From Luteimonas marina (GTDB taxonomy: Bacteria; Pseudomonadota; Gammaproteobacteria; Xanthomonadales; Xanthomonadaceae): DNA of 64,000 bases. Shown here in pieces: positions 1,014 through 63,692 of the stretch (position 1 is its first letter; every line of letters starts with the position of its first letter). The position numbers were made by a program, and so were the translations under genes. Location of the stretch: positions 248,001 to 312,000 of the forward strand of contig NZ_VOHK01000003.1 in the NCBI RefSeq assembly GCF_007859325.1, in the 5' to 3' direction. Under the pieces are notes generated by a model. The model saw nothing but the letters and a program-made list of their open reading frames with translations. It ran no database searches and was not told the DNA's origin.

Positions 1014-1093
1014 TGTCATCCCGACTTCGGGCTCGGTCCCGGGGCAGGATCAAAGGCAGATCCCCCCGGATCGAGTCCGGGGTCGGGATGACA
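1014..1093. repeat. Degenerate GTCAT-type inverted repeat
   Basis: The ends 1014-1025 (TGTCATCCCGAC) and 1082-1093 form a perfect 12-bp inverted repeat. Inside, each arm has a CCCCGGA/TCCGGGG type apical stem, as in the left arm of the copy near 20.64 kb, but here it is eroded. It fills the gap between surA and pdxA. Confidence 0.7.
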
Positions 1094-1128
1094 GCCGGGG
1101 GATGCCGCTCGCCGGAGCGACAATGGCC

Positions 1129-2424
1129 CTAGCCGCCGACGCGGATGTCGACGTAGGCTTCACCGCGCATTTCGCGCAGGTAACGGTCCCACTCGTCCTC
1201 CAGCTTGCGCTGGCCGATCGATTCGCGGACCTGCGCGCGGCGGTTCTCGTCCTCGACGCTGGTCTGGCGCGTGCCCACGCGCTGCACGATGTGCCAGCCG
1301 GCCTGGGTCTTGAACGGCGCCGATACCTGGCCGTCCTGCAGGTTCGCGACCTGGCCGCCGAACTCGGGCCCGAACTCGTCCTGCGTGAACCAGCCCAGGT
1401 CGCCGCCTTCGGCCTTGCTCACGGTGTCGTCGGAACTCTCGCCGGCGACCGCCTGGAAATCGGCGCCGCCGGCGATGCGGGCGCGCAGGGTGTCGATCCG
1501 GGCCCTGGCCTCGCCGTCGCCGCTGGCGCCTTCGGCCGGGCGGACCAGGATGTGGCGCGCGTGGTACTGGGTGACCGTGCCCGCGCCGCCGGCAGCCTGC
1601 GCGCCGTCGCGGGTCTCGACCAGCTGCAGCAGCTGGAAGCCGCTCGGGCCGCGGATCGGGCCGATGACGTTGCCCGGCTGCATCGAGCGGATCGCGTTCG
1701 CGAACGCGACCGGGATCTCGTCGAGGCTGCGCCAGCCCAGGTCGCCGCCCTCGAGCGCGTTGGGGCTGTCGGAATAGCGCACCGCGGCGGCGGCGAACTG
1801 CATCTCGTTGCGGTCGAGCAGCGACTTGATGCCGTCGATCTTCTGCTGGCCGGTGGCGATCTGCTCCGGCGTCGCGCCTTCCGGCAGCGCCACCAGGATG
1901 TGCGCCAGGTGGTACTGCATGGCGCCGGCCTGCGAGGCCATCGCGGCGTCGACCTCGGCGTCGCTGACGCTGATCCGGCTCTGCGCGAAGCGCTGGCGCA
2001 GGCGCTGGGTCAGGATCTCGTCGCGCAGCGAGCTGCGGAAGTCCTCGATCGACATGCCGTCGCGCGCCAGCTGCTGGCGCAGCTGGTCGGGCGAGAGATT
2101 GTTCTGCTGGGCGATGTTGTTGATCGCGCTGTCGACTTCCGCGTCGCCGACGCGCACGCCGGTTTCCGCGGCGCGGGTGGTCTGCAGCTTGACCAGGATC
2201 AGGCGCTCAAGTACCTGCCGCTCCAGCACGTGCCGCGGCGGCAGCTGGTTCTGGCGGTTCGCGTACTGGGCGACGATGTTCGAGACCGCGCGGTCGAGTT
2301 CGCTCTGCAGGATGACGTCTTCGTCGACCACAGCGGCGATGCGCTCCAGCGGCTGGGCCTGTTGCGCGTGGACGGAAGCCGCGAACAGCAGGGCGGCGCA
2401 CAGGAGGGCGGTGCGGATCTTCAT
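1129..2424 (-). CDS. surA: Periplasmic chaperone / peptidyl-prolyl isomerase SurA
   Basis: Chaperone that escorts unfolded outer-membrane proteins, including LptD, across the periplasm to the BAM complex. The 431-residue product starts with a signal peptide of about 20 residues ending AASVHA. A SurA N-domain follows (about 22-165, with the typical QSELDRAV and LILVKLQ region), then two parvulin domains: one around 170-272 (HILVALPEG...GGDLGW) and one around 285-385 (ARHILVRPAEG...GGDLGWFTQDEF). The ATG at 2424 overlaps the lptD stop codon as ATGA, so the two are probably translationally coupled. The lptD-surA-pdxA order supports the assignment. Confidence 0.97.
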   Translation of the reverse strand: MKIRTALLCAALLFAASVHAQQAQPLERIAAVVDEDVILQSELDRAVSNIVAQYANRQNQLPPRHVLERQVLERLILVKLQTTRAAETGVRVGDAEVDSAINNIAQQNNLSPDQLRQQLARDGMSIEDFRSSLRDEILTQRLRQRFAQSRISVSDAEVDAAMASQAGAMQYHLAHILVALPEGATPEQIATGQQKIDGIKSLLDRNEMQFAAAAVRYSDSPNALEGGDLGWRSLDEIPVAFANAIRSMQPGNVIGPIRGPSGFQLLQLVETRDGAQAAGGAGTVTQYHARHILVRPAEGASGDGEARARIDTLRARIAGGADFQAVAGESSDDTVSKAEGGDLGWFTQDEFGPEFGGQVANLQDGQVSAPFKTQAGWHIVQRVGTRQTSVEDENRRAQVRESIGQRKLEDEWDRYLREMRGEAYVDIRVGG

Positions 2425-4817
2425 GGCAGGAGGTCTGACGTATTGTCGTCGTCGTCGGCACCGCTGCCGAGCTCCGACGGCGGGACGAGGTAGAGGTCGT
2501 CGCGGTGGTATCCGAGGATAGCACGGCGCAGGCGGCTCTGGTTGTCGGGGCCGGCCGAGCCGAGGCCCTTGAGTTCGATCTCGAGCTGGATGGCATCGTT
2601 CATTTCGCCGCGGGTATTGCGCACGTAGCGGCGCGCCACCAGGCGGGCGGCGACGCAGCAGCTTTCCCACTGCACGCCGGCGATCGCTTCCAGCACCTGG
2701 TTGGACTGCAGCGAGTAGTAGTAGCGCCCGACCACGCTCCAGGCGGGGTTGATCGGGTACAGGAAGGACAGGTCGACCTGCTCCAGCAGGTCGGCCTGGG
2801 TGAGCGCGTTGCGGCGGTAGCGGTAGGCGAGGTTGACGATGCCGTCGTCGCCGACCAGGTAGCGCGTGCGCACGGTCGCCAGGTCCTCGCGGCTGGTGGC
2901 CGGGTTCCACTGGTAGGAGGTGCCGATGGTCCAGCGGTCGTTGATCGCGTAGTTGGCATCGACCACCCAGGCCGACTTGCCTTGCTCGATCGGGACCTCG
3001 TTGCCGAGCGTGACGCGCGCGTCCTCGAAGTAGCGGATCTGGCCGACGCTGGCCGAGAGCTTCTCGCGGCCGTCGGACTCGCGGATCAGGCGCGTGGTCA
3101 GCGCCAGCGTGAGCTGGTTGGCGTCGGCCTGGCGATCGCCGCCGGAATAGCGGTTGTCGCGGAACAGCTGGCCCCAGCTGAAGGTCATCGGCCGGGTGTC
3201 GAACAGCGGCATGTTGTCCTGGTCGCGATAGGGCGAGTTCAGGTAGAACAGCCGCGGCTCCAGCGTATGCAGGTAGTCGTCGCCGCGGAAGCGGGTGTTG
3301 CGGTCGAAGAACAGGCCGGCGTCGATGCTGCCGATGGGCTGGCTGCGCGAAGGGGACGCGTCGGGTGCCGTCGGCGAAAGCCGCTGTGCGAGGGCATCGT
3401 CCAGCTGATAACCGGTGTAGCGCCAGGCCAGGGTGGGCGTGACATACCAACTCGCGCCCTCGAGCGGCATGCTGACGTAGGGCTTGAGGTCGAGGCGGCT
3501 GCCTCCAGGTCGTGTCGTCGAATCGATATGCGAGAAACGTACGACTTCGGTGTCGGCGCCGGCGACGAACCAGCGCCCGAACGGCTGCTCCCAGCGGAAG
3601 TAGGCGCGGGGGAGGCGATTGTAGGGCAGCTGCGCTTCACTGAGGGTGTAGTCGGTCAGGTGGCGGTATTCGCCGACCAGGCCGGCATTCCAGTACCGCC
3701 CCCGCCCGTAAATGCCGACGTTGCTGATCAGAGAGAAGACCGATAGTCCCTCGACGCTGCTGCTGGCGTCTTCCAGCCAGCGTGGATCGCTGACCCAGTA
3801 GAGGTTGGCGCGCGCCTGCCAGGTGTGGTCGATGTTCTGCAGACCGTTGTAGCGGAACATGCCGCGGTCGTCCTCGCGGTAATTCTCCGGCCGGATCCGT
3901 GGATCCGCGATTTCCTCCGCCCGCTCGCGCCATACCAGGTCGTCCGACGGCAGCGCCTGCAGCTCGAACCTGCCGCGGCCGCGTTCGGTGAGGTAGCGGA
4001 ACTCGGTGCCCAGCTGCAGCCCGCGCCGGCTCATCCAGCGCGGCGTCACGGTCATGTCGTAGTTCGGGGCGAGGTTGAGGTAGATCGGCTGGCGCCAGTC
4101 GAAGCCGTTGCGCCCGGACATGCTGATGCTGGGGTACAGCAGGCCGGTGCGCCGCCGGTCGTCGATCGGGAAGGCGAGATAGGGCACGTACAGCACCGGC
4201 ACCTTGCCGATGCGCAGGGTGGCGTTGCGGGCGACGCCGGTGCCTTCGTCGGTGTCGACGTCGATGCGCTGCGCGCGCAGTTCCCACCAGCGCTGGCTGG
4301 GCGGGCAGGTGGAATAAGTGGAGCCGAACATCCGCCCCTGCGCGTCCTGCATCTCGATGCGCTCGGCGCCGCCGTTGCCGCGGCGCTCGGTCAGCTGGTA
4401 GCGGACGTTGTCGATGCGGTGCGATTCGGTGTTCTGGTCGCCCTCGAGCCGGTCGGCGACGATGCGCATGCCCGAGTCCTGGTAGCGCACGTTGCCGGTC
4501 GCGGTGTAGGTGCCGGCTTCGGGCGAATACTCGATGTCGTCGGTGCCGAGGAACTGGTCGCCGCGGCGCAGGGTGACGTTGCCGGTGACGTTGTACAGGC
4601 CGCCGTCGATGCCCACGGTCTGGTCGCCCTGGATGTCGGTGGGCAGGCTGTCGCGGCTGGCGGCGTCGCCCTTGGGCGGCTGCGCGTCGGGGAACAGCGG
4701 CACCGCGTCCTCGACCGGGCACAGCGACCAGTCGACCGGGATGTCGTCGTCCGCGTGGGCTGCCAGCGACAGGGCGATGCAGAGCGGCAGTGGCAGCAGG
4801 CGGAGCGCTGGACGCAC
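2421..4817 (-). CDS. lptD: LPS-assembly outer-membrane protein LptD
   Basis: Outer-membrane beta-barrel that inserts lipopolysaccharide into the outer leaflet together with LptE. The 798-residue product has a signal peptide (MRPALRLLPLPL...AAHA), an N-terminal beta-jellyroll (about 50-200) and a long barrel domain rich in alternating aromatic residues. The mature part has exactly four cysteines: one in SLCP, one in STCP and a CC pair in WESCCVA. This matches the two-disulfide pattern of E. coli LptD. I chose the GTG at 4817 because it places a normal signal peptide at the N-terminus. A TTG at 4877 would add 20 residues with an unusual proline-rich leader. The stop overlaps the surA start by four bases. 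Confidence 0.95.
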   Translation of the reverse strand: MRPALRLLPLPLCIALSLAAHADDDIPVDWSLCPVEDAVPLFPDAQPPKGDAASRDSLPTDIQGDQTVGIDGGLYNVTGNVTLRRGDQFLGTDDIEYSPEAGTYTATGNVRYQDSGMRIVADRLEGDQNTESHRIDNVRYQLTERRGNGGAERIEMQDAQGRMFGSTYSTCPPSQRWWELRAQRIDVDTDEGTGVARNATLRIGKVPVLYVPYLAFPIDDRRRTGLLYPSISMSGRNGFDWRQPIYLNLAPNYDMTVTPRWMSRRGLQLGTEFRYLTERGRGRFELQALPSDDLVWRERAEEIADPRIRPENYREDDRGMFRYNGLQNIDHTWQARANLYWVSDPRWLEDASSSVEGLSVFSLISNVGIYGRGRYWNAGLVGEYRHLTDYTLSEAQLPYNRLPRAYFRWEQPFGRWFVAGADTEVVRFSHIDSTTRPGGSRLDLKPYVSMPLEGASWYVTPTLAWRYTGYQLDDALAQRLSPTAPDASPSRSQPIGSIDAGLFFDRNTRFRGDDYLHTLEPRLFYLNSPYRDQDNMPLFDTRPMTFSWGQLFRDNRYSGGDRQADANQLTLALTTRLIRESDGREKLSASVGQIRYFEDARVTLGNEVPIEQGKSAWVVDANYAINDRWTIGTSYQWNPATSREDLATVRTRYLVGDDGIVNLAYRYRRNALTQADLLEQVDLSFLYPINPAWSVVGRYYYSLQSNQVLEAIAGVQWESCCVAARLVARRYVRNTRGEMNDAIQLEIELKGLGSAGPDNQSRLRRAILGYHRDDLYLVPPSELGSGADDDDNTSDLLP

Positions 4818-4928
4818 GCGATGGAATCCCGGTGGCGGAAAGGGCGCTAGCTTGCCGGAAGCACTGTGTAGCGGCAATGCAGGCGCCAGCCGCGGTTCAT
4901 GCTGCAGGCAGCGCCGGCGCGGCGGCGC

Positions 4929-5879
4929 TCAGGGCTGCGAAGAGCCCGCCGCGGCCGATGCGCCGGCCAGCGCGGACACGTGCGCGACCGCGCCCTCGCG
5001 CAGCGCCTGCAGGTCGTAGCCGCCCTCCAGCATCGACACGACGCGGCCGCAGGCATGGCGCGCGGCCAGCCGGCACAGTTCGCCGGTCAGCCAGTCGAAG
5101 TCGCCGGGCCCGAGGTCCAGCCCGGCCAGCGGGTCGCGACGGTCGCCGTCGAAGCCGGCGGAGATGAACACGAGCTGGGGCGCGAACGCGTCCAGCGCCG
5201 GCAGCAGGGTGCCGGCCCAGGCCTGTCTGAACGGCGCGCTGCCCGCGCCCGCCGGCAGCGGCGCGTTGACGAGGTTGCCGACGCCGCGCTCGCTGCCGGC
5301 GCCGGTCCACGGATACAGCGGCGACTGGTGCGAGCTGAGGTAGAGCACGCGCGGGTCGCGCTCGAAGATCGCCTGGGTGCCGTTGCCGTGGTGGACGTCG
5401 AAGTCGACGATCGCCACCCGCGCCAGGCCGAACCTGTCGAGCGCGTGCGCGGCGGCCACGGCGATGTTGTCGAACAGGCAGAAGCCCATCGCGGCGTCGA
5501 TCGTGGCGTGGTGGCCCGGCGGGCGCACGGCGCAGAAGGCGACGTCGGTTTCGCCGTTCATCACCGCCTCGGTCGCGGCGATGCCGGCGCCGACCGCGCG
5601 CAGCGCCGCCTCGGGCGATCCGGGCGAGACGACGGTGTCCGGGTCGAGTCGCGTCGATCCCTGCGGGTGCGGCGCCAGCACCATCGCCAGCAGCGCCGGA
5701 TCGTGCACGCGCAGCAGCTGTCCGCGGGTGGCGCGCGGCGCCTCGATCCACTCCAGCGCCGGGAACGCCTCGTGCACCGCTTCGAGCACCGCCTCGAGCC
5801 GCTCCGGGCATTCCGGATGGCCCGGCCCGGTGTCGTGCTCCAGGCAGGCGGGGTGGGTGTAGCCGAGGATGCGCGCCAT
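4929..5879 (-). CDS. Histone-deacetylase-family amidohydrolase
   Basis: Zinc-dependent arginase/deacetylase-fold enzyme, 316 residues, the usual size for bacterial HDAC-like and acetylpolyamine amidohydrolases. The charge-relay and metal motifs are intact: RPPGHHA (about 130), DFDVHHGNGT (about 168), FISAGFD (about 255) and LEGGYD (about 293). The natural substrate cannot be read from the sequence; acetylated polyamines, lysines or acetoin-related substrates are all possible. One base separates its ATG from the stop of the upstream cobalamin adenosyltransferase, so the two are probably co-transcribed. No metabolic link between them is obvious. Confidence 0.9.
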   Translation of the reverse strand: MARILGYTHPACLEHDTGPGHPECPERLEAVLEAVHEAFPALEWIEAPRATRGQLLRVHDPALLAMVLAPHPQGSTRLDPDTVVSPGSPEAALRAVGAGIAATEAVMNGETDVAFCAVRPPGHHATIDAAMGFCLFDNIAVAAAHALDRFGLARVAIVDFDVHHGNGTQAIFERDPRVLYLSSHQSPLYPWTGAGSERGVGNLVNAPLPAGAGSAPFRQAWAGTLLPALDAFAPQLVFISAGFDGDRRDPLAGLDLGPGDFDWLTGELCRLAARHACGRVVSMLEGGYDLQALREGAVAHVSALAGASAAAGSSQP

Positions 5880-5880
5880 G

Positions 5881-6435
5881 TCAGCGCGAGCGTCGCTCGT
5901 GCCGCCACAGCACCTCGCCGTGCCCGCTGGCGCGGGCCAGCACGCGCGCGAGCACGAACAGCAGGTCGGACAGGCGGTTGAGGTAGCGGACCGCCTGCGG
6001 GCGCACGGCCTCGTGGCGCGACAGCGCGACCGTGTCGCGTTCGGCGCGGCGCACGACGGTGCGGGCGACGTGGCAGCGCGCCGCCGCCTCGCCGCCGCCG
6101 GGCAGGATGAAGTCCTTCAGCGGCGGCAGCGGTTCGTTGTAGCGGTCCAGGTGCGCTTCCAGCCGGTCGATGTCGGCGTCGTCGATCGCGGCATGGCCGG
6201 GGATGCACAACTCGCCGCCGAGGTCGAACAGCTGGTGCTGGATCGCGGTCAGCAGGTCGCGGACGTCATCGGGCAGTTCGGCGGCCAGCAGCAGGCCGAT
6301 CGCGGAATTCGCCTCGTCGACGGTGCCGTAGGCGTTGACCCGCGCCGAATCCTTGGCCACGCGCGTGCCATCGCCCAGGCCGGTCGTGCCGTCGTCGCCG
6401 GTGCGGGTGTAGATCTTCGACAGCCGGTTGCCCAT
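5881..6435 (-). CDS. PduO-type ATP:cob(I)alamin adenosyltransferase
   Basis: Transfers the adenosyl group of ATP to cob(I)alamin, giving coenzyme B12 for adenosylcobalamin-dependent enzymes. The 184-residue product begins with the TRTGDDGTTGLGDGTRV nucleotide-binding segment and contains KDFILPGG and the C-terminal RYLNRLSDLLFVLAR helix, all hallmarks of the PduO/MMAB family rather than CobA/BtuR. It lies between the HDAC-like gene downstream and a membrane protein whose stop is 32 bp upstream. No B12 riboswitch is visible in front of it. Confidence 0.93.
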   Translation of the reverse strand: MGNRLSKIYTRTGDDGTTGLGDGTRVAKDSARVNAYGTVDEANSAIGLLLAAELPDDVRDLLTAIQHQLFDLGGELCIPGHAAIDDADIDRLEAHLDRYNEPLPPLKDFILPGGGEAAARCHVARTVVRRAERDTVALSRHEAVRPQAVRYLNRLSDLLFVLARVLARASGHGEVLWRHERRSR

Positions 6436-6467
6436 GGCCGGGCCTGGTCAGCGCGTCGTGCGCGGGA

Positions 6468-7058
6468 TCAGCGCCGCGCGCCGTCCCGGGCCAGGGCGGC
6501 GTTCGCCGGCAGCAGGCGGGCGACGAGGACGTGGGTGGCCGCCGCGATGCCGACGTACATCGCGGTCACGCGCAGGTAGGGCAGCAGCCAGTCGGTGTAG
6601 TTCTTCCACCAGCCGGCGACGGTGGGTTCGGCCACCGCGCTGCTGGTCCAGTAGAAACCACCCTGCGCGAACAGGTGGCAGACCGCGACCGAAGCCACGA
6701 CGCTCGCCACCAGCAGCCCGAGCGCGCGCCAGCCGATGCCGCCGGCGTGGCGCTGCAGCCACCATCCGCCGGCCCACATCGCCAGGTGCGCCGGCACCAG
6801 CGCCCAGTAGCCGGGCGAGACGCAGTAATGGGTCCAGAAATCAATGCCCTGGCCGCTGATGACGATCCAGTCGACCATCACGGCCAGCGCCATCAGCAGC
6901 GGGAACGCCCAGCGCGTCCAGCGATGCAGGTAGAAGCCGCCGACGAAGAACACCGCCCAGGACGCGTCCGGCACCGCGCCGAAGTGGTGCAGGCGCGTCG
7001 CGACCATCACGGCGGCCAGCAGGGTCAGGATCGCGGCGCGGCTTGCGGCGGTGGTCAT
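6468..7058 (-). CDS. Small multi-pass membrane protein, possibly vitamin-transport related
   Basis: A 196-residue hydrophobic protein with about five predicted membrane spans (roughly 8-27, 35-48, 53-70, 84-100, 110-130 and 160-182) and a short basic tail. The N-terminal pattern with an Arg, a Pro and a gly-phe-tyr segment (FFVGGFYL) resembles DUF6580-type proteins, some of which have been proposed as B12-precursor transport components. That resemblance is from memory and weak. It lies directly upstream of a cobalamin adenosyltransferase, which makes a cobalamin connection plausible but not shown. The ATG at 7058 is divergent from ubiH with about 90 bp between them. Confidence 0.6.
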   Translation of the reverse strand: MTTAASRAAILTLLAAVMVATRLHHFGAVPDASWAVFFVGGFYLHRWTRWAFPLLMALAVMVDWIVISGQGIDFWTHYCVSPGYWALVPAHLAMWAGGWWLQRHAGGIGWRALGLLVASVVASVAVCHLFAQGGFYWTSSAVAEPTVAGWWKNYTDWLLPYLRVTAMYVGIAAATHVLVARLLPANAALARDGARR

Positions 7059-7148
7059 GGTGCGGGGCTCCGGAGGACGGCGCGGAAGAGACCCGCATTC
7101 TAGCGGACGCAGGGGCGGCCTGCCGCCGGCGCCCGCTATCATGGCGCG

Positions 7149-8357
7149 ATGGAAACCGTGCATCCGGTGCTGATCGTCGGTGGCGGACTGGTCGGCGCCA
7201 GTCTCGCGCTCGCGCTCGATCGCGCGGGGATCGCCGCGGCGATGGTCGAGGCCGCGCCGCCCGGCGCGATGCCGGCGGTGTTCGACCAGCGCAACCTCAG
7301 TTTCGCCGACGCGACCGTCAACGCGCTGACCGCGCTCGGCGTGATGCAGCGGCTGCGCGCGCCCGCGGGCGCGATCCGGCGCATCCACGCCAGCCGCAGC
7401 GGCGACTTCGGCCGGGTGCTGCTGGATGCGGCCGACTACGGGCGCGACAGCTTCGGCCAGGTCGTGGTGGCGCGCGATTTCGGCGAAGCGCTGGAAGCCC
7501 GCCTGGCCGAACTCCCGCACCTGGTCCGCCATCGGCCGGCGCGGTTCCTGGGCTTCGGCGAGACCGCCGACGGCGTGCGCCGGGTCCGCATCGACGACGG
7601 CGACGGCGAGCGCGTCCTGCACGCGCGCCTCGTGGTCGCCGCCGACGGCACCGGCAGCCGGGTGCGCGACGCGCTCGGCATCGCGGTCGACGAGCACGAC
7701 TACCGGCAGCGGCTGTTCGTCGCGCGGCTGCGAACGCGGCGTGCGCCCGAGGGCATCGCCTACGAGCGGCTTGGCGACGACGGCCCCACCGCGCTGCTGC
7801 CGCGCGGCGACGGCGCCTGGGGGCTGGTCCACGGCGTCGCCGATGAGGACGCGGATGCGGTGGTGGTGCTGGACGATCGCGCCTTCCTCGACCGCGTGCA
7901 GGCCGCGTTCGGCTGGCGTGCGGGACGTTTCGTCGAAGTCGGCGAACGCAGCGTCTATCCGGCCTTGCGCGCGGTGGCGGCGCGCACCACGGCAACGCGC
8001 GCGGTGCTCGTGGGCAATGCCGCGCAGAGCCTGCATCCGGTGGGCGCGCAGGGCTTCAACCTCGGCCTGCGCGATGCGCTGACGCTGGCCGAACTGGTGG
8101 CGGACGCGGACGATCCGGGCGCGGATGCGCTGCTTGACGCCTACGCCGCGCGCCGGCGCGAGGATCGCGAGCGCACGCTGGCGTTTTCCGACGGGCTGGC
8201 GCGCCTCACCGCCAACCGCGCCTCCGTGCTGCGCCCGCTGCGCAGCCTCGGCCTGCTGGCGGTGGACCGCGTGCCGTCGCTGCAGGCGCTGCTTGCCGGC
8301 GGCGCGATGGGCTTTCGCGGCGACGTGCCCGCGCTGTGCCGGGCGGGTGCCGCATGA
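7149..8357 (+). CDS. ubiH: Ubiquinone-biosynthesis FAD hydroxylase, UbiH type
   Basis: Flavin-dependent aromatic hydroxylase of the UbiH/COQ6 family, which adds ring hydroxyls during ubiquinone synthesis at the inner face of the membrane. The 402-residue product has the dinucleotide-binding GGGLVGASLALAL at the N-terminus, the DG motif VVAADGTGSRVR (about 160) and the second FAD motif GNAAQSLHPVGAQGFNLGLRD (about 290-310). Its TGA overlaps the ATG of a second hydroxylase of the same family, the same pairing as ubiH-visC in enterobacteria. Which ring position each enzyme modifies cannot be fixed from sequence alone. Confidence 0.88.
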   Translation: METVHPVLIVGGGLVGASLALALDRAGIAAAMVEAAPPGAMPAVFDQRNLSFADATVNALTALGVMQRLRAPAGAIRRIHASRSGDFGRVLLDAADYGRDSFGQVVVARDFGEALEARLAELPHLVRHRPARFLGFGETADGVRRVRIDDGDGERVLHARLVVAADGTGSRVRDALGIAVDEHDYRQRLFVARLRTRRAPEGIAYERLGDDGPTALLPRGDGAWGLVHGVADEDADAVVVLDDRAFLDRVQAAFGWRAGRFVEVGERSVYPALRAVAARTTATRAVLVGNAAQSLHPVGAQGFNLGLRDALTLAELVADADDPGADALLDAYAARRREDRERTLAFSDGLARLTANRASVLRPLRSLGLLAVDRVPSLQALLAGGAMGFRGDVPALCRAGAA

Positions 8358-9532
8358 GCCGGCGCGACCTGCACGACGTGGCGGTGGTCGGCGGTGGCGT
8401 GGTCGGCGCCGCCTGCGCGCTGGAGCTGGCGGAACTCGGGCTGGACGTGTGCCTGGTCGAGGCCGCGCGGCCGCCGGCGTGGTCGTCGGCGCAGCCGGAC
8501 CTGCGGGTGTACGCGCTGGCGTCGGACAACGTCGCGCTGCTCGAAACGCTTGGTGCATGGACACCGGTGCGCGAGGCGCGCGCGCAGCCGTACCGGCGGA
8601 TGCGGGTCTGGGACGCGGCCGGCGGCGATCCGATCAGCTTCGACGCCGACGCGCTCGCGCGCACCGAGCTGGGCTGGATCGTCGAACACGGCCTGCTGGT
8701 CGACGCCCTGTGGCAGGCGCTGCCGCGCAGTCGCATCCGCCTGGCCTGCCCGGCGCGCGTCGAGGCGCTGGAGCAGGACGCGGCCGGCGTGCAGCTGCGG
8801 CTCGACGATGGCACCCGCGTCGCCGCGCGCCTCGCCATCGCCGCCGACGGCGCCGCCTCGCCGCTGCGGCGGTTGGCCGGCATCGCGGCCGAGGCCCATG
8901 ACTACGCGCAGCAGGGCATCGTCGGATACGTGCAGGTCGAGCGCCCGCACGAGGCGACCGCCTGGCAGCGTTTCCTGCCGACCGGGCCGCTGGCGCTGCT
9001 GCCGTGGACGGACGGGACCTGCTCGATCGTCTGGACCCTGCCCAACGACGAGGCCGCGCGCGTGCTGGCGCTCGACGACGCCGCGTTCGCGCGCGCCATC
9101 ACCACCGCCTTCGACGCGCGGCTCGGCACACTGCGACCGACGAGCAGGCGCGTCGCCTTCCCGCTGCAGCGCCAGCTCGCCGCCACCCAGCACGCCGGCC
9201 GCGTGCTGGTGATCGGCGACGCCGCGCACGCGGTGCATCCGCTGGCCGGGCAGGGCGTGAACCTCGGCCTGCGCGATGTGTCCGCGCTGCGCGACAGCGT
9301 GCGCGAGGCGCAGCGGCGACGCGTGGCCTGGGATGCGTCGCACCGGCTCGCGCGCTGGGCGCGGGCGCGGCGCAGCGAGAACACGGTCGCCGCTTACGCG
9401 TTCGACGGCATCAACCGCCTGTTCTCGAACGACGCCATCGCGCCGACGCTGCTGCGCGGACACCTGCTCGGCCTCGCCGGCCGGATGCCGCCGCTGGTGG
9501 ACCTGTTCCGGCGGCGCGCCGCCGGCGGCTGA
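8354..9532 (+). CDS. ubiI: Ubiquinone-biosynthesis FAD hydroxylase, UbiI/VisC type
   Basis: Second flavoprotein hydroxylase of the ubiquinone pathway, 392 residues. Motifs are VVGGGVVGAACALEL (about 8-22), AADGAASPLRRLAG (about 155) and GDAAHAVHPLAGQGVNLGLRD (about 290-310). I chose the ATG at 8354, which overlaps the upstream stop as ATGA; the GTG 18 bp upstream would add six residues without improving the fold. It is paralogous to the preceding gene over the full length. It ends six bases before the convergent DUF808 gene, leaving no room for a terminator. UbiI is the best guess, but UbiH and UbiI roles could be swapped. Confidence 0.82.
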   Translation: MSRRDLHDVAVVGGGVVGAACALELAELGLDVCLVEAARPPAWSSAQPDLRVYALASDNVALLETLGAWTPVREARAQPYRRMRVWDAAGGDPISFDADALARTELGWIVEHGLLVDALWQALPRSRIRLACPARVEALEQDAAGVQLRLDDGTRVAARLAIAADGAASPLRRLAGIAAEAHDYAQQGIVGYVQVERPHEATAWQRFLPTGPLALLPWTDGTCSIVWTLPNDEAARVLALDDAAFARAITTAFDARLGTLRPTSRRVAFPLQRQLAATQHAGRVLVIGDAAHAVHPLAGQGVNLGLRDVSALRDSVREAQRRRVAWDASHRLARWARARRSENTVAAYAFDGINRLFSNDAIAPTLLRGHLLGLAGRMPPLVDLFRRRAAGG

Positions 9533-9538
9533 CGGGCG

Positions 9539-10477
<939 letters not shown>

Positions 10478-10552
10478 GCGGGGGCGTCGGTCGGGGGCGG
10501 AGGGCGGCAGATTGTAGGGGCGCGGCCGTCGGTTGGCGTCAAGACGCCGTCG

Positions 10553-10891
10553 TCAGCGCGCCAGCGCCCAGGCGGCGAGGCAGAACGACAGCGCCGCGAC
10601 GGTGGTCGCGACCAGGGTCACGCGCTGGGCCAGCGCCAGCCGGCGCTCCATCCGCTCCGCGCCGAGCTGCAGCGCCTGCATGGCCTGCTGCATGTCGCGG
10701 GCGAGCTTGGCGATGGAGTCGGCGTTCTGGCTCGCGGCATCCTGGAGTTCGACGATCTGGGTGTCGACGACGTCCAGGCGCAGGCGCTGGCTGTCGTCGG
10801 GAAGCGGCGGCGTACGCGTGAACATCGGCCGCGCGAGGCGGATGATCTCCGGCAGGTAGGGAGCGACGACGGTGATCCAGCTGGCGGCCAT
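10553..10891 (-). CDS. Small hypothetical protein with coiled coil and C-terminal membrane helix
   Basis: 112 residues and not a family I recognise. The middle (about 35-85) is a heptad-like amphipathic helix (VVDTQIVELQDAASQ... to AERMERRL), and the last 25 residues form one hydrophobic span (TLVATTVAALSFCLAAWAL). The likely topology is a membrane-anchored coiled coil. The ATG at 10891 is taken because other frames over this stretch give only arginine-rich shadows. A large composite palindrome lies immediately upstream. Confidence 0.6.
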   Translation of the reverse strand: MAASWITVVAPYLPEIIRLARPMFTRTPPLPDDSQRLRLDVVDTQIVELQDAASQNADSIAKLARDMQQAMQALQLGAERMERRLALAQRVTLVATTVAALSFCLAAWALAR

Positions 10892-10916
10892 GTCCGGTTC
10901 CTTGATTCGGGAATTT

Positions 10917-11072
10917 GTGATTGGTGATTGGTGATTCGGGAGAAGCGCAACAGCCTGTCATCCCGAGCGAAGCGAGGGATCTCGCCTTGCCTGGAAGGGA
11001 AGCAGATCCCTCGCTGCGCTCGGGATGACATGGTTTGGCTTTCCGATTCCCGAATCACCAATCACCAATCAC
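10917..11072. repeat. Composite nested palindrome: outer 25-bp arms
   Basis: A perfect 25-bp inverted repeat, 10917-10941 paired with 11048-11072, encloses a complete GTCAT-type element (10956-11030). The arms consist of GTGATTG/GTGATTC short tandem units. An extra GATTCGGGA copy lies just outside at 10904-10912. The right arm covers the stop codon of rlmM. No repeat in the rest of the window has these arms, so it looks like one repeat inserted within another. In rlmM mRNA it would fold into a very long stem. Confidence 0.85.
10956..11030. repeat. GTCAT-type paired-hairpin repeat
   Basis: Arms 10956-10982 and 11004-11030 are inverted copies with one mismatch. Each arm alone folds as ATCCC-GA-GC-GNA-GC-GA-GGGAT: a five-pair outer stem, tandem G-A mismatches, a two-pair inner stem and a three-base loop. 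The only difference between the arms is in that loop (GAA versus GCA). Confidence 0.9.
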
Positions 11073-12127: not shown

Positions 12128-12145
12128 GCGGCAGGCTGCATCCGA

Positions 12146-12228
12146 CCTGTAGGAGCGCCTTCAGGCGCGATGCTTTTGAGTCGGGGCCCGGGAAGCAAGC
12201 GCATCGCGCCTGAAGGCGCTCCTACAGG
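12146..12228. repeat. TTCA-loop REP pair (28-bp perfect inverted repeat)
   Basis: Arms 12146-12173 and 12201-12228 are perfectly complementary over 28 bp. Each arm carries its own GCGCC-TTCA-GGCGC hairpin preceded by GTAGGA, the layout of REP sequences common in pseudomonads and xanthomonads. It lies between rlmM (downstream) and the deaminase gene (upstream), immediately 3' of the deaminase. Confidence 0.9.
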
Positions 12229-12248
12229 ATCTGACGCGGGCAAGGGCA

Positions 12249-13204: not shown

Positions 13205-13215
13205 CCGGTGTCTCC

Positions 13216-14985
<1,770 letters not shown>

Positions 14986-20632: not shown

Positions 20633-20708
20633 GTCATTCCGACCCCGGACCTGATCCGGGGGAGGAATCCCGCCTTGGGGCAGATCTCTCGCTGCGCTCG
20701 AGATGACA
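20633..20708. repeat. Hybrid GTCAT-type repeat with one elongated arm
   Basis: The left module (20633-20668) folds as ATTCC-GA-CCCCGGA-loop-TCCGGGG-GA-GGAAT: the standard frame with a seven-pair apical stem in place of the usual two. The right module read in reverse gives ATCTC-GA-GC-GCA-GC-GA-GAGAT, a pairing combination not seen elsewhere in the window. It lies between ahpF and oxyR. Confidence 0.85.
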
Positions 20709-25300: not shown

Positions 25301-25378
25301 GGGGGCGATGCAGGGAACGGCTTGGCGCAGCAGGGCCGCGTAAAGATGAAGAGCGCCGCAAGGGACAACCCAAAGTGT

Positions 25379-25488
25379 CGTCATCCCGGCGAAAGCCGGG
25401 ATCCATTTTGCCGTTGCGGTTGCCTTTGCATGGGCTGCAACAGTCAAAGGCAGAATCAAAATGGATCCCGGCTTTCGCCGGGATGACG
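25379..25488. repeat. GTCAT-type repeat with GAAA-loop arms (32-bp inverted repeat)
   Basis: Arms 25379-25410 and 25457-25488 are perfectly complementary over 32 bp. Each arm is itself a hairpin, ATCCC-GGC-GAAA-GCC-GGGAT, with a GNRA-type loop in place of the GA/GA internal mismatches of the other copies. It fills the convergent gap between the iminopeptidase and the N-formylglutamate amidohydrolase gene. Confidence 0.9.
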
Positions 25489-25549
25489 ACTGAAAACGGG
25501 ATGACGACTGTGGGCCGGATGGCGACTGAAAGCGGGACGACTGAAAAGC
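25480..25549. repeat. Short degenerate tandem repeat
   Basis: Four decaying units of 16-19 bp, each like GGGATGACGACTGAAAAC, start at 25480, 25498, 25517 and 25534. They begin at the last bases of the adjacent GTCAT repeat, as if its end had been copied by slippage. They are too short and diverged for a CRISPR. Confidence 0.7.
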
Positions 25550-32200: not shown

Positions 32201-32292
32201 CCTGTCATTTCGACCGCAGGGAGAAATCTGCGGCCTCCGCGCGATATCGGAGCTGGTTGCGGGAGATTTCTCCCTGCGGTCGAAATGACAGG
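32201..32292. repeat. GTCAT-type paired-hairpin repeat
   Basis: Arms 32201-32229 and 32264-32292 form a perfect 29-bp inverted repeat. Each arm folds as ATTTC-GA-CC-GCA-GG-GA-GAAAT, the same frame as the copy at 10.96 kb but with changed, still pairing, bases in both stems. A partial CCTGTCAT copy lies just before it at 32181. It fills the convergent gap between pntAa and the DUF3106 gene. Confidence 0.92.
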
Positions 32293-42224: not shown

Positions 42225-42290
42225 CTGTCATTCCGAACGCAGTGAGGAATCTCGAATAGCGCAGATTTCTCGCTACGCTCGAAATGACAG
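42225..42290. repeat. GTCAT-type repeat whose two arms pair differently
   Basis: The left arm folds as ATTCC-GA-AC-GCA-GT-GA-GGAAT, and the right arm, read in reverse, as ATTTC-GA-GC-GTA-GC-GA-GAAAT. The arms differ from each other, yet each keeps its own full pairing. Spacer ten bases. Confidence 0.92.
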
Positions 42291-43698: not shown

Positions 43699-43783
43699 AA
43701 ACTGTCATTTCGACCGCAGGGAGAAATCCCGTCTCCGGCGCAAGGGAAGGGGGGATTTCTCCCTGCGGTCGAAATGACAGTTT
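43699..43783. repeat. GTCAT-type paired-hairpin repeat (32-bp perfect)
   Basis: Arms 43699-43730 and 43752-43783 pair perfectly over 32 bp. Each arm is ATTTC-GA-CC-GCA-GG-GA-GAAAT, the same as the 32.2-kb copy. It lies just past the cold-shock gene terminator. Confidence 0.93.
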
Positions 43784-46762: not shown

Positions 46763-46838
46763 TGTCATCCCGAGCGCAGCGAGGGATCTGCTTTTGAAGT
46801 CAACCGGACGGAGATCCCTCGCTGCGCTCGGGATGACA
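46763..46838. repeat. GTCAT-type paired-hairpin repeat
   Basis: A perfect 27-bp inverted repeat (46763-46789/46812-46838). Each arm is ATCCC-GA-GC-GCA-GC-GA-GGGAT. It lies in the convergent gap between the AidB-like gene and the secreted hydrolase. Confidence 0.93.
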
Positions 46839-48425: not shown

Positions 48426-48495
48426 GGCGGTGGTTCCTGTCTGGGGTGGGTGGCCGGAACGGGCGTCGTCCGGTGATGCGTACTTTGGGCGCCCG

Positions 48496-49375: not shown

Positions 49376-49390
49376 GCCGCGGCGCCGGAC

Positions 49391-53530: not shown

Positions 53531-53612
53531 GCCAACGTCCGGAGGGCGGCACCGGGGTTGCCGGAGCGGTCGCTGATTCCCGTTATGCTCCCTGAATGGA
53601 GGTGGCGTACCC

Positions 53613-56537: not shown

Positions 56538-58269
56538 GCTGCGGCTCGTCGACGGATTCGCCGTCGGCGACCAGTGTCCGTGAGGCCTCGATCAATTCAG
56601 CGAACTCCGCGCGCAGTTTCCACGGATCGCTGCCCCGGGTCGCGCGCGCGCCGGCCGCGATCGCCGACAAGTCCCATTGCTCCAGGTGCTTGCCGCCGCG
56701 CAATGCATCCGCCCAGGCCGCCACCGTCGCGGCGAAGCGCATCGATTCACCCGGCTGCCGCGCGATCGCGCTGCGCAGTACCGGAGTCTCGATCAGCCGG
56801 CTCGTGCTCTCGCCGGGCCGCTTGTAGCGCAGCCGCAGGTGCGCCAGTTCGTCCGGGGTCCGCGCGTCCGGCGCCTGCGCCGTGCCGTAGCGCAGCGGTG
56901 GCAGGCGCTGTGCGCCGGAGCCGGCGAGGGTGATCTCGTACAGCGCGGTGACCTCGTGGCCGGCGCCGATGTCGCCGGCGTCGACGCGATCGTTGGCGAA
57001 ATCCTCGCGCGCGAGCATGCGGTTCTCGTAGCCGATCAGGCGGTACTCGCTGACCAGCGCCGGATTGAACTCGACCTGGATCTTCACGTCTTGCGCAATG
57101 GTGAGCAGGGTCGAGGACATCTCCTCGACCAGCACCTTGCGCGCCTCCTGCAGCGTGTCGATGTAGGCGTGGTTGCCGTCGCCGGCGTCGGCCAGCCGCT
57201 CGGCGAGGTGGTCGTTGTAGTTGCCGGTGCCGAAGCCGAGCGTGGTCAGCGCGATGCCGGACTTGCGCTGGTCGGCGACCATCGTCTCCAGCGAGCCGCC
57301 GTCGACCGTGCCGACGTTGAAGTCGCCGTCGGTGGCGAGGATCACGCGGTTGACGCCGTCCTTGACGAAGGCGCGTTTCGCCATCGCATAGGCCAGGCGG
57401 ATGCCGTCGCCGCCGTTGGTGCTGCCGCCGGCTTCGAGGCGGTTCAACGCCGCAAGGATCTCGTCCTTGCGGTCGCCCGGCGTCGGCGGCAGCACCAGGC
57501 CCGCGGAGCCGGCGTAGACGACGATGCTGACGCGGTCCTGCGCGCGCAGTTGTTGCGTCAGCTCGGAGAACGCCTGCTTGAGCAGCGGCAGCTTGTCGGG
57601 CGAGTTCATCGAACCCGAGGTGTCGAGCAGGAACACCAGGTTGGCCGGCGGCAGCTCGGCCTTGGCCACGTCGAAGCCCTTGATGCCGACCATCAGCAGG
57701 TGCCGCTGCGCGTTCCACGGCGCCGGCGCGACCTCGACCGTGGCGCGGAACGGCGTGTCCAGCGACGCCGGGCCGGGATGGCCGTAGTCGAAGTAGTTGA
57801 TGAACTCCTCGGCGCGCACCGCGTCCGCCGGCGGGCGCACGCCCTGGCGGATCATGCGGCGGACGTTGCTGTAGCTGCCGGTGTCGACGTCGATGGAGAA
57901 GGTGGACACCGGCTGCTCGGCGACGCGCTGCACGGGGTTGTCGCTGCGCTCGGCGTAGTTTTCGGTGTTCGCCGGTTGCGTGTATGCGGGCGGCGGCGCG
58001 GCCATGTCGTAGGCGATCGTGGCCGGCGCCGGCGCGTAGGCCATGCGCGTTTCCTGCGCGCGCATGCGCGCGGCGGCAAGCGCCTTCGCGGGCGCGGCAC
58101 CGCCGAGGGTGTCGAGGATTTGCGGTTCGGCGGGCGGCGGCGGGGCGGGCGGCGACACCCGGTCGTGGACGGTGCTCGCGGCCTGCGCCTCGCGTTCGCT
58201 CGGGGCGCTGGTGCAGGCGGACAGGACGATGGCGGCGAACAGGGCAGAGGCGAGGGCATGGCGTTGCAT
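56518..58269 (-). CDS. von Willebrand factor A domain lipoprotein (YfbK-like)
   Basis: 583-residue predicted lipoprotein: lipobox LSACTSA (cysteine about 19), a disordered segment (about 25-130), a YfbK-type N-terminal domain ([19 protein letters not shown], about 148) and a VWA domain (about 210-400) with an intact MIDAS start DTSGSMNS (about 219) and [11 protein letters not shown]-terminal DUF3520-like domain follows. It is probably a periplasmic metal-dependent protein-binding module. The convergent partner's coding end overlaps this stop by 20 bp; the start is divergent from miaA with 90 bp. Confidence 0.88.
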
Positions 58270-58359
58270 GGCGGGACTCCCGTGATGGTCGACGGGATTG
58301 AACGCGCGAGCTTCGGCAACGGGGTTGGGGCGGGGGCCAACCGTGCCGATAATGCCGCG

Positions 58360-59340
58360 ATGCCCGCCGACACCCGCCCGCCCGCCATCGCCCTCATGGG
58401 CCCCACCGCCTCGGGCAAGACCGCGCTGGCGCTGGACTGGGCCGAGCGTTTCGGCGGCGAGATCATCAGCGTCGATTCGGCGCTGGTCTACCGCGGCCTC
58501 GACATCGGTTCGGCCAAGCCGGATGCGGACGAGCGCGCACGCGCACCGCACCACCTGCTCGATCTGCGCGATCCCTGGGACAGCTACTCGGCCGCGGAAT
58601 TCGCGCGTGACGCGCGGCGCGCCATCGACGCCATCGTCGCGCGCGGCCGCCTGCCGATCCTCGCCGGCGGCACCGGACTCTACTTCCAGGCCCTGCTGCG
58701 CGGGCTGTCGCCGATGCCGGCGGCCGACGCCGACATGCGCGCCGGCATCGCCGCGCAGGCGCGCGAACGCGGCTGGCCGGCCATGCATGCGGAGCTGGCC
58801 GCGATCGACCCGGCCGCCGCGGCGAGGATCAAGCCCGGCGATCCGCAGCGCATCCAGCGCGCGCTGGAGGTGTTCCGGCTCAGCGGCCGCCCGATCAGCG
58901 ACTGGCAGCGCGAACCGCCGGCCGCGCCGCGCCTGCCGGTGAAGGTGCTCAAGATCGTCGTTGCGCCGCGCGATCGCGGCGTCCTGCACGCGCGTATCGC
59001 CGCGCGCTTCGACGCGATGCTCGCTGCCGGCTTCCTCGACGAGGTGCGCGCGCTGCGTGCGCTGCCGGCGCTGCAGGCGCATCCGGCGCCGCAGGATTTG
59101 CCGGCGATCCGCGCCGTCGGCTACCGCCAGGCCTGGGAACACCTCGACGGGGGCAGCGATGCCGCCGGATTCCGCGACCGCGCGATCTTCGCCACCCGCC
59201 AGCTCGCCAAGCGCCAGCTCACCTGGCTGCGCGGCGAGCTCGATGCGCAATGGTTCGATCCGGGCGAGGGGGGCGGTGCCGGGATCGAGGGGGCTGTCCG
59301 GCGCTTTCTCCGCGGTCGGGCGTTGGCAGGTGGCGCCTGA
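58360..59340 (+). CDS. miaA: tRNA dimethylallyltransferase MiaA
   Basis: Adds dimethylallyl to A37 of tRNAs reading codons beginning with U. 326 residues; P-loop [12 protein letters not shown] (about 14), [19 protein letters not shown] (about 37), the [12 protein letters not shown] segment, [13 protein letters not shown] (about 101) and AVGYRQAW (about 253). It is first in the miaA-hfq-hflX-hflK-hflC run typical of gammaproteobacteria. The stop lies inside a REP pair. Confidence 0.97.
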
Positions 59341-59384
59341 AGGCGCTCCTGCGGCGGATTTCCCGTAGAAGCGCCTTCAGGCGC
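59333..59384. repeat. TTCA-loop REP pair over the miaA stop codon
   Basis: Arms 59333-59352 and 59365-59384 pair with two mismatches of 20. Both carry GCGCC-TTCA-GGCGC hairpins. The left arm includes the last codons of miaA. Confidence 0.85.
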
Positions 59385-59579
59385 GCCCCCGCCCGCCACC
59401 CCCGGGAACCCCGGCACGATTCCGCGACGCGGCGCACAAAACCGCCCCGCGAACGCGTACGGGTTGTGTACCATCGGTACGTCGCCGCCGCATGGGGAAC
59501 ACGCGGGTCGGGCGATGCGGCCGGGGAACGCCCGCGGGCGCCGGTTCGGACACAACAATAACCAAGCTGGGGAAACACC

Positions 59580-59855
59580 ATGTCCAAGGGGCAATCCTTG
59601 CAGGATCCTTTCCTGAATGCGCTGCGGCGCGAACGCGTACCGGTCTCCATCTACCTGGTCAACGGCATCAAGCTGCAGGGCGTCATCGAATCCTTCGACC
59701 AGTTCGTCGTCCTGCTGCGCAACACCGTCAGCCAGATGGTCTACAAGCACGCCATTTCCACCGTGGTGCCGGCGCGCAACGTGCGCGTGGGGCCGGGCGG
59801 GGGCGTGGTCCAGGCGGCCGAGGGCGCCGAGGACATGACGGCCGAAACCGCCTGA
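59580..59855 (+). CDS. hfq: RNA chaperone Hfq
   Basis: 91-residue Sm-like hexameric RNA chaperone for small-RNA/mRNA pairing. Sm1 (about 6-46, [28 protein letters not shown]) and Sm2 (about 48-66, [10 protein letters not shown]) motifs are intact, followed by a short acidic tail. The 239-bp gap before it holds a REP pair and a possible promoter, so it is probably transcribed both from miaA and on its own. Partner of any small RNA in this genome, including the candidate near ahpC. Confidence 0.98.
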
Positions 59856-59863
59856 GCGGCCCG

Positions 59864-59887
59864 GTCCGGGCGCAGCAGGCCCCGGAC
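59864..59887 (+). other. Intercistronic hairpin hfq-hflX
   Basis: A seven-pair stem GTCCGGG/CCCGGAC (59864-59870 with 59881-59887) with a ten-base loop and no T-tract. Possible mRNA stability or processing element rather than a terminator. Confidence 0.5.
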
Positions 59888-59947
59888 GGTTGAAGATCGG
59901 GCCGGCGGCCTCCATGTCTGATGGCCTGAGCCGCCGCCCGAGTCGAG

Positions 59948-61309
<1,362 letters not shown>

Positions 61310-61317
61310 ACTATCGG

Positions 61318-61344
61318 GCCGCGTCGCCGGAAACGGCGCGCGGC
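61318..61344 (+). other. Long GAAA-loop hairpin between hflX and hflK
   Basis: GCCGCG-T-CGCCG-GAAA-CGGCG-CGCGGC: eleven pairs with one bulged T and a GNRA loop, with no following T-run. It lies in the 57-bp gap and may uncouple hflKC expression from hflX or protect an RNA end. Confidence 0.65.
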
Positions 61345-61366
61345 GGAACCCCAGACTGGAGCAGGC

Positions 61367-62506
61367 ATGGCCTGGAACATTCCCGGCAAGAACAACGACG
61401 ACCAGCCACCGGAGCGCAAGCGACCGGAGGGCAACGGCCGCAACCCGTGGCCGCCCAAGCGCCGTCGCGGCAGCGGTGGCCTCGGCGACATCGGCGACCG
61501 CCTGCGCGATGCGTTCGGTGGTGGCGGTGGCGGCGGCAACCCGCTGCGCTGGATCGCGATCGCGCTGGCGCTGTGGCTGGTGTTCAACTGCTTCGTGCTG
61601 ATCGGCGAACAGCAGCGCGGCGTGGTGCTGCGCTTCGGCGAGATCGCGCGGATCATGCAGCCCGGCCCGAACTTCAAGCTGCCCTGGCCGGTCGAGAGCG
61701 TGGTCAAGGTCGACGCCACCTCGGTCCGCACCTTCAGCAACTCCATGCCGGTGCTGACCCGCGACGAGAACATCGTGACCGTGTCGTTCAACGTGCAGTA
61801 CCGGGTCAGCGACCCGGAGCTGTTCCTGTTCGGCACCCGCGATGCGGTGCGCGTGCTGGAGCAGGTCTCGCAGAGCGCGGTGCGCGAACAGATCGGCCGC
61901 GCCGACCTCGACACCGCGCTCAACGCCCGCGGCCCGCTGTCGGTGGCTGCCTCGACGGCGCTGCAGGCCTCGCTCGAGGCCTATCGCACCGGCCTCGTGG
62001 TCACCGAGCTGAACCTGCAGGACGCGCGTCCGCCGGAAGAGGTCAAGCCGGCCTTCGACGAGGTCAACAGCGCCCAGCAGACCAACGAGCGCCTGGTCAA
62101 CGAGGCCCGCGCCTACGCCGCCAAGGTGGTCCCGGAAGCGCGCGGCGACGCGCAACGCCTGCGCACCACCGCCGAGGGCTACAAGACCGCGTCCGTGGCC
62201 CGCGCCACCGGTGACGCGCAGCGCTTCACGCTGCTGGTCGACGAATATCGCAACGCGCCCGACGTGACCCGCAAGCGCCTGTGGCTGGAAACCGTGCAGC
62301 AGGTGCTGGCCGACAACCGCAAGATCGTGGGCGGCGACGGCCGCCAGCTGATCTACGTGCCGATGACGCAGTCCGGCAGTTCGGGCAGCGCCTCGCAGCC
62401 GCCGGTGCTGCCGCAGGAGATCGTGTCGCCGCCGGTCACCGCGACGCCGGACCCGGCCCTGCCGCGGCCGGCGCGCGCGACCCGCGCCGAAGGAGGCAAC
62501 CGATGA
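61367..62506 (+). CDS. hflK: FtsH regulator HflK
   Basis: 379-residue SPFH-domain membrane protein that forms a cage with HflC around the protease FtsH. The cytoplasmic N-terminus is Arg/Pro/Gly-rich (about 1-58) and a single membrane helix (about 60-80) follows. The SPFH domain contains EQQRGVVLRFGEIARIMQPGPNFKLPWP (about 82-108) and ends with a coiled coil. The C-terminal tail is Pro/Ser-rich. The stop overlaps the hflC start as ATGA. Confidence 0.97.
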   Translation: MAWNIPGKNNDDQPPERKRPEGNGRNPWPPKRRRGSGGLGDIGDRLRDAFGGGGGGGNPLRWIAIALALWLVFNCFVLIGEQQRGVVLRFGEIARIMQPGPNFKLPWPVESVVKVDATSVRTFSNSMPVLTRDENIVTVSFNVQYRVSDPELFLFGTRDAVRVLEQVSQSAVREQIGRADLDTALNARGPLSVAASTALQASLEAYRTGLVVTELNLQDARPPEEVKPAFDEVNSAQQTNERLVNEARAYAAKVVPEARGDAQRLRTTAEGYKTASVARATGDAQRFTLLVDEYRNAPDVTRKRLWLETVQQVLADNRKIVGGDGRQLIYVPMTQSGSSGSASQPPVLPQEIVSPPVTATPDPALPRPARATRAEGGNR

Positions 62507-63366
62507 GATTCAACCTGATCATCCCCGTGGTGCTGCTGGTGCTGCTGGGCCTGCTCGGCTCGGTCTACGTCGTGCGCGAGGGGCAGGTGGCGCTGGTGCT
62601 CAACCTGGGCCGCGTCGCCCGCACCGACATCGGCCCGGGCCTGCACTTCAAGGTCCCGCTGATCGAGACCGCGCGTGTGTTCGACCGCCGCTTCTACGCC
62701 GCCGAGTTCTCGCCCGAGCGCTACCTCACCTCAGAGCGCAAGGACGTGAGCGTCGACTTCGTCGCGATCGGCCTGATCAACAACGTCGGCGACTTCTACC
62801 GCGCCACCGGCGGGCAGATGGACGTGGCCAACGACCGCCTCGCGCCGATCATCAAGGACTCGCTGCGCAACGAGATCAACGCGCGCACGCTGACCGAACT
62901 GGTGTCGGGCGACCGCGCCGAGATCATCGCCAAGCAGCTCGAGGGCATCAACGAGGCCGCGAAGACGCTGGGCATGCGCGTGATCGACATCCGCCTCAAG
63001 CAGATCGACCTGCCCACCGACAGCGACGTCATCGCCCAGGTCTACGACCGCATGCGCGCCGAACGCCGCCAGGTGGCCAGCCGGCTGCGCGCCGAGGGCG
63101 AGGAGCAGGCGCGCATCATCCGCGCCGAGGCCGACCGCGAGCGCACCGTGCTGGTGGCCGAGGCCGAACGCGACGCGCAGAAGCTGCGCGGCGAGGGCGA
63201 TGCCGAGGCGACCCGCATCTACGGCCAGGCCGCACAGCGCGACCCCGCCTTCTACGCCTTCCAGCGCAGCCTGGAGGCCTACCGCAACGCGTTTGCCGAC
63301 GGCGACGGCGTGATCGTGCTCGAGCGCAACGATCCCTTCCTGCAGTACCTGCGCAACGATCGCTGA
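62503..63366 (+). CDS. hflC: FtsH regulator HflC
   Basis: 287-residue partner of HflK with an N-terminal membrane helix (about 5-22), SPFH domain (about 20-190, VVREGQVALVLNLGRVARTDIGPGLHFKVPLIE) and a coiled coil rich in Arg/Glu/Ala (about 190-245). Last residues FLQYLRNDR. Translation is coupled to hflK through a 4-bp overlap. Confidence 0.97.
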   Translation: MRFNLIIPVVLLVLLGLLGSVYVVREGQVALVLNLGRVARTDIGPGLHFKVPLIETARVFDRRFYAAEFSPERYLTSERKDVSVDFVAIGLINNVGDFYRATGGQMDVANDRLAPIIKDSLRNEINARTLTELVSGDRAEIIAKQLEGINEAAKTLGMRVIDIRLKQIDLPTDSDVIAQVYDRMRAERRQVASRLRAEGEEQARIIRAEADRERTVLVAEAERDAQKLRGEGDAEATRIYGQAAQRDPAFYAFQRSLEAYRNAFADGDGVIVLERNDPFLQYLRNDR

Positions 63367-63430
63367 CGCGTTCGTTTCCTGCCTTCCCCGCGAGCGGGGA
63401 GGGCTTCAACTTCCCCGGCGAGGCGCACGC

Positions 63431-63619
63431 ATGAACGACCTCTGGGCCGCCCTGTGCCTTGTCGCCGTCCTCGAAGGGCTGGTGCTGTTCGTCGCCCCGG
63501 GCGGCTGGAAGCGCGCTGCGGAACAGCTGCAGGCGCTGCCCGAGCGCCAGCTGCGGACGATCGGCGGGATCGTGCTCGTCATCGGTCTGGTTGCCCTGTA
63601 CTTCGTGCGCGGCGGGTAA
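63431..63619 (+). CDS. DUF2065 small membrane protein (YjeT-like)
   Basis: 62 residues with two membrane helices (about 3-20 and 43-58). The family (DUF2065/YjeT) is a regular neighbour between hflC and purA, and its function is unknown. An 11-pair GC-rich hairpin near 63382-63403 precedes it without a T-tract. Confidence 0.88.
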   Translation: MNDLWAALCLVAVLEGLVLFVAPGGWKRAAEQLQALPERQLRTIGGIVLVIGLVALYFVRGG

Positions 63620-63664
63620 GAGCCTGTTCACGGTCCTTGTACCAGGGGCAAACCTCACCGAAGA

Positions 63665-63692
63665 CGTCATCCCGGCTTTCGCCGGGATGACG
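63665..63692. repeat. Solitary GAAA/TTTC-type GTCAT hairpin
   Basis: CGTCATCCCGGC, a TTTC loop and the reverse complement: a perfect 12-pair stem, the same sequence as each arm of the 25.4-kb repeat, here as a single arm. Confidence 0.9.

Follow-up and report, generated by a model that had tools for sequence, protein, structure and literature searches.

The closest described systems are the REPs with a CGTC tag and those with a GTAG tag. In the parts of the 2013 survey of the CGTC-tagged REP superfamily drawn on here (Di Nocera 2013, PMC3733652), members carry a CGTC, often TGTC, tag followed by A-T as the first two pairs, with stems of 8–9 bp, loops of 4–5 nt and mostly CCA tails. They occur as head-to-head dimers in several phyla and "apparently lack a dedicated transposase", and what moves them was left open in those pages. 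GTAG REPs, REPINs and RAYTs, as presented in the sections cited of PMC3116915, PMC6006769 and PMC8266576, also involve inverted pairs of small tagged hairpins, and in the last of these sources the E. coli transposase TnpAREP requires a bulged mismatch and cleaves next to REP hairpins, at CT. The modules analysed here share the tag, the A-T start and the head-to-head arrangement of the CGTC REPs but differ in the hairpin itself, which consists of 5 bp, a tandem GA and 2 bp around a 3-nt loop, and is then followed by CT.

Modules in the window and in the Luteimonas marina genome

In the window (the whole stretch of 64,000 nucleotides that was analysed) the string GTCATYYCGA appears at 14 sites, which form seven inverted pairs, against an expectation of 0.47 (100 shuffles of the window, mean 0.47, largest 3). 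The nine GTCAT loci listed by a first-pass annotation of this DNA are all present. Its proposal of one common module type stands for 11 arms that share the GA/GA mismatch (type A), whose alignment gives the consensus TGTC-ATYYC-GA-NC-GNA-GN-GA-GRRAT-C, and does not extend to the other arms in the window, which differ in kind.

Type A dimers lie at 10957..11029 (outer pair CC/GG, inner GC/GC), at 32204..32289 (TT/AA with CC/GG) and at 46764..46837 (a homodimer, CC/GG with GC/GC); a further homodimer lies at 43704..43778 (TT/AA with CC/GG). The heterodimer at 42227..42288 combines a left arm with TC/GA and AC/GT and a right arm, at 42288, with TT/AA and GC/GC, so that the arms are unlike each other, yet each is self-complementary. 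At 20633..20707 a left arm of type B (outer TC/GA, GA/GA kept, longer inner stem) faces a type A right arm (CT/AG, at 20707). The outer pairs at all these places, and the three inner pairs GC/GC, CC/GG and AC/GT, are those the annotation had described. The longer inner stem is also seen in the arms at 1015 and 1092, both degenerate, which make up a type B dimer at 1014..1093. The remaining two loci are perfect hairpins without GA/GA and have the CGTC-1 shape (type C): a dimer at 25377..25490 with a perfect 8-bp stem and a GAAA loop, and a single double-foot CGTC hairpin at 63666..63691 with the tag on both ends. No strand is assigned to any of the nine features. A 25-nt perfect outer inverted repeat, rich in GATTGGT (10917-10941 and 11048-11072), encloses the dimer at 10957, and a separate family of GTAG-like REP inverted pairs is found at 12146-12228 and 59333-59384.

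Throughout the genome, a loose search for head-to-head pairs, with only GTCAT, AT and the length prescribed, returned 174 dimers, and none in the reversed-pattern control. A model built from the 11 type A arms matched at least 150 genome copies. The dimer at 43704 and its spacer are 93–94% similar to two other places in the genome.

Compensatory change and the tandem GA

Two sets of arms were compared with shuffles, GTCAT and the end AT being fixed in all the scans that fed them. The own-genome set rests on 50 listed of the 174 dimers (100 arms, 36 distinct), among which one resembling a chance match (C1:544332) was retained; 167 of the 180 pairs form in the distinct arms (shuffle maximum 144). 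The cross-phylum set, taken from 80 listed of at least 117 scanned stretches, comprises 115 distinct arms; its 88 dimers come from other organisms and are spread over 80 contigs. Here 93.8% of cells pair, compared with 76.7% after shuffling, two of the seven pairs being fixed by the search pattern. The covariation value is 0.536 (0.209 shuffled, at most 0.184 with slid partners) and 175 cells are changed on both sides (51.7 shuffled). Two other measures did not exceed the shuffles in these arms: pairs showing at least one double change (5 against 4.6) and distinct pair types (14 against 12.8). There are five variable pairs; four of them are the column pairs with the highest mutual information, and the fifth (12/16) ranks ninth. 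Kinship among arms inflates such covariation counts; when a single arm stands for each locus, 376 of 400 pairs still form (shuffles reach 301 at most). The compensatory change within modules that had been claimed from the window is thus found in own-genome and cross-phylum arms, in excess of both shuffles and slid controls.

A closer look at dimers with unlike arms bears on the further claim that selection acts on more than a long inverted repeat. The 20 own-genome heterodimers offer 30 differing pair sites, 17 of which still pair within both hairpins but have lost the two matches between the arms, and the same holds for 86 of 131 differing sites in 70 cross-phylum heterodimers. Since these sites mostly keep the hairpins over inter-arm matching, it is the single hairpin that is conserved as a unit, in line with the claim, and the covariation has the same meaning: each hairpin, rather than the long inverted repeat, is kept.

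The GA/GA mismatch, said never to change, is present in all 11 type A arms of the window and is near-invariant, not invariant, genome-wide: of the 100 listed own-genome arms, 94 retain the one G·A pair and 93 the other, and A to G accounts for eight of the 13 exceptions. Each pair is kept in 106 of the 115 distinct cross-phylum arms, for which GA was demanded in one arm of the dimer; in the partner arms, free of that requirement, the GA/GA rate is 92%. The mismatch is therefore strongly conserved, and the free variation that would have spoken against a folded element was not seen. Tandem G·A pairs are generally known in a sheared geometry, which the annotation suggested for these modules. One dimer joins an arm with a perfect stem, in which GA pairs with TC (L065:2672-2695), to a tandem-GA arm, a hint that the two classes are related.

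Distribution, empty sites and the folded strand

By record title, the dimer-bearing contigs among the listed stretches span about 14 bacterial phyla, and one titled Nanoarchaeota may be contamination. Among 250 sampled genomes of the order only the L. marina genome is rich. The other 249 hold 0–4 dimers each (62 with any; reversed control 0–2), and those listed look like chance matches in other sequence. Dimers occur in seven of 52 genomes within the genus, with forward counts of 165, 39, 29, 14, 11, 6 and 1, and 45 carry none. A stricter pattern was matched in 17 stretches of viral contigs. A 13.8-kb contig of a viral collection (L251) has 10 strand matches, that is, five dimers. With blastn, a weak test for 25-base modules, the window dimer gave one weak match among plasmids and phages, to a plasmid, and the L063 dimer gave none in E. 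coli.

Comparison with related genomes had been proposed as a check of the hairpins. At six orthologous sites aligned with congeners, all 27 comparisons came out without a module, one of these comparisons (G323 at L026) involving a run of N; the composite query held eight sites, of which L011 gave no syntenic pair among the matches listed and L021 was left out. At the window site 43704 the dimer is absent from five of five congeners in an alignment read by eye. Seven sites and 32 comparisons in alignable congeners are thus without a dimer, and the congeners include two that have dimers elsewhere. Presence differs between close relatives, as is expected of REPs and REPINs, in a comparison of species rather than strains. 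The extra DNA at 43704 amounts to about 120–135 bp with respect to the congeners, not 75; the exact insertion edges were not seen in these comparisons because the intergenic DNA of the congeners is too diverged.

These sites weigh on the proposal that the modules are a structured RNA element that is retained because it acts on transcripts, as a terminator, an mRNA stabiliser or a processing hairpin. The within-hairpin covariation of the cross-phylum arms would fit such an element, as would the bias of dimers to gene 3' ends and the better folding of the RNA sense strand, by 1.1–1.9 kcal/mol over the antisense. Against it, dimer sites are not common to congeners, no Rfam family reaches the gathering threshold in the window, and the modules fold with an energy that is ordinary in comparison with shuffles. 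Whichever strand of a head-to-head dimer is transcribed, the RNA would contain one sense and one antisense module, so that dimers carry both senses. Upstream of the 43704 dimer stands another hairpin, terminator-like and with a T run, which the five relatives without the dimer also possess. The difference between strands is small for DNA (−1.9 vs −1.7, −2.6 vs −2.0, −3.5 vs −3.3 and −1.6 vs −1.5 kcal/mol). From the annotated "folded RNA or DNA hairpin" the hairpin is thus upheld by covariation and the structured RNA is unlikely. A DNA hairpin fits better, and an RNA effect may be added beside its DNA role.

Flanks, proposed mobilisation and relation to known repeats

At 26 own-genome dimers Y and T stand in front of the tag, the base at −1 being T in 51 of the 52 flanks; it is T or C in 164 of 175 cross-phylum flanks, where GTC was fixed by the search pattern. 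On the other side, of 176 cross-phylum arms, 166 are followed by C at +1 and 139 by T at +2. No target site duplication, a mark of a MITE of a DDE transposase, was detected at the 26 dimers (four-base matches at offsets 0–5 only, best 1, shuffles' mean best 1.07). Convergent gene pairs surround 12 of 23 intergenic dimers, as against 9 of 50 window gaps, and four of 27 dimers fall inside an open reading frame of the crude caller, one of them (43704) being intergenic by alignment; for these flank and gene-position counts loci were picked by model score and genes came from a crude script. Placement at convergent gene ends is a REP habit in the text cited of PMC3733652.

The repeats could be copied as passengers inside larger DNA transposons or MITEs. 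In a Clostridiales MAG (G293, L208-L227) the dimers lie within a larger repeat whose ends resemble CAGACTGTGTGAAAAA. All 20 stretches fetched for its 26 dimers contain one or both of these ends, several of the stretches being cut by contig ends. In L. marina, the other of the two genomes covered by this check, the flanks of 26 dimers are unlike right up to YTGTC, which makes passenger copying very improbable as an explanation.

A more specific proposal is that the dimers are REPINs driven by a RAYT, spread by the single Y1 transposase gene of the genome. This gene, the only Y1_Tnp match (L001:1141-1929, minus strand), has a type A dimer (L001:1029-1096) about 45 bp past its stop codon, and L181 has a Y1 domain with a dimer some 120 bp away. 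The homologues tell otherwise. None of 29 homologue loci in other genomes of the order (L033-L061, flanks up to 1.5 kb) has a type A dimer, and a lone arm was seen only at L060, some 500 bp off. At 28 of these loci, examined by eye with L059 left out, the end repeats are GGGTCAG or its complement in 20, a variant in three and none in five. These GGGGWSAS-type ends resemble those of the TIRYT, or TnpAY1 subclass 2.1, group (passages cited of PMC6006769 and PMC3733652), in which the L. marina protein is placed on the strength of the ends of its homologues and not of a tree; they are not the GTCAT module. The L. marina protein reads HIELNP where homologues have YIELNP, with His in place of the Tyr of all 27 motif-bearing homologues (two of the 29 loci gave no motif), so the catalytic tyrosine is lost and the protein is probably inactive.

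The carrier genomes agree with this. The 51 considered are those of 50 of the 80 listed loci plus L. marina, all chosen for carrying a dimer (51 of 51 by design) and several being MAGs. No Y1_Tnp match was found in 11 of the 51, including ones with 164 and 66 dimers, though some are incomplete MAGs. Around the best Y1 locus of 29 carriers any module lies within about 1.5 kb in three, one of them a dimer (0.82 dimers expected), and across 50 genomes the Y1 count is uncorrelated with dimer density (rho −0.05, p 0.71). No cognate gene flanked by the same repeat was found, though the L. marina gene adjoins a dimer, and a RAYT is a decidedly unlikely mover. Nor did the neighbourhoods of the 88 cross-phylum dimers (156 near open reading frames) contain a homologous cluster near a dimer in more than two loci; no mobiliser emerged from the Y1 genes of carriers or from these frames. 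In the parts cited of PMC6006769, the automatic search used GTAG and GTGG tags, plus manual inspection, and no REPs are reported for subclasses 2.1 and 2.3. The present results extend this negative to the tandem-GA class.

The preferred reading, to which we give a probability of about 0.7, is a dispersed REP/REPIN-like DNA repeat with a TGTC tag and a tandem-G·A stem, whose folded single strand would be recognised and copied by an enzyme, perhaps other than a Y1/RAYT transposase. Its observed basis is the structure-preserving covariation, a tag and GA/GA that hardly vary, the many copies, their patchy distribution and empty orthologous sites, from which we infer that dimers are mobilised. On the other side of the balance are the searches that yielded no mobiliser, the unseen insertion edges, the size of the extra DNA at 43704, the ordinary stability of the hairpins and a strand difference that is small in DNA while RNA favours the sense strand. 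The unit would be the tandem-G·A hairpin YTGTC-AT-NNN-GA-NN-(three-base loop, often GNA)-N'N'-GA-N'N'N'-AT-CT, two of which, head to head with a short spacer, constitute the dimer studied. The enzyme may recognise the tag and the mismatch-bearing hairpin beside the C-T dinucleotide. A wider proposal, of pan-bacterial dimers of this class spread within genomes by a non-Y1 single-strand DNA mobiliser and passing between phyla, is tentative and falls somewhat short of even odds. For the hunt for the enzyme the class offers genome pairs, with many phyla, congeners ranging from 165 copies to none, and carriers without a Y1 match.

No description of a tandem-GA TGTC class was found in the open literature, of which figures and supplements, outside the search, may hold one, nor in the parts cited of PMC12306157; literal module strings gave, among the matches listed, titles on other subjects. 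With respect to the GTAG REPs, the modules have another tag and no RAYT link was found for them here. They resemble E. coli REPs, as described in the text consulted, in having stem mismatches, and P. aeruginosa GTAG-24 (PMC3733652, section cited) in the unpaired GA at the fifth stem position. As short tagged palindromes that are extragenic, of high copy number and arranged in inverted pairs, counted as dimers, they belong with REPs and REPINs in the broad sense. Their tag is that of CGTC families 1–4 (CGTC or TGTC), the stem and loop of these families (8–9 bp, 4–5 nt) being found in type C of the window and not in type A. We read the TGTC-tagged tandem-GA repeat as related to the CGTC REPs, and its strongly covarying hairpin is most plausibly a novel form of REP-type DNA.
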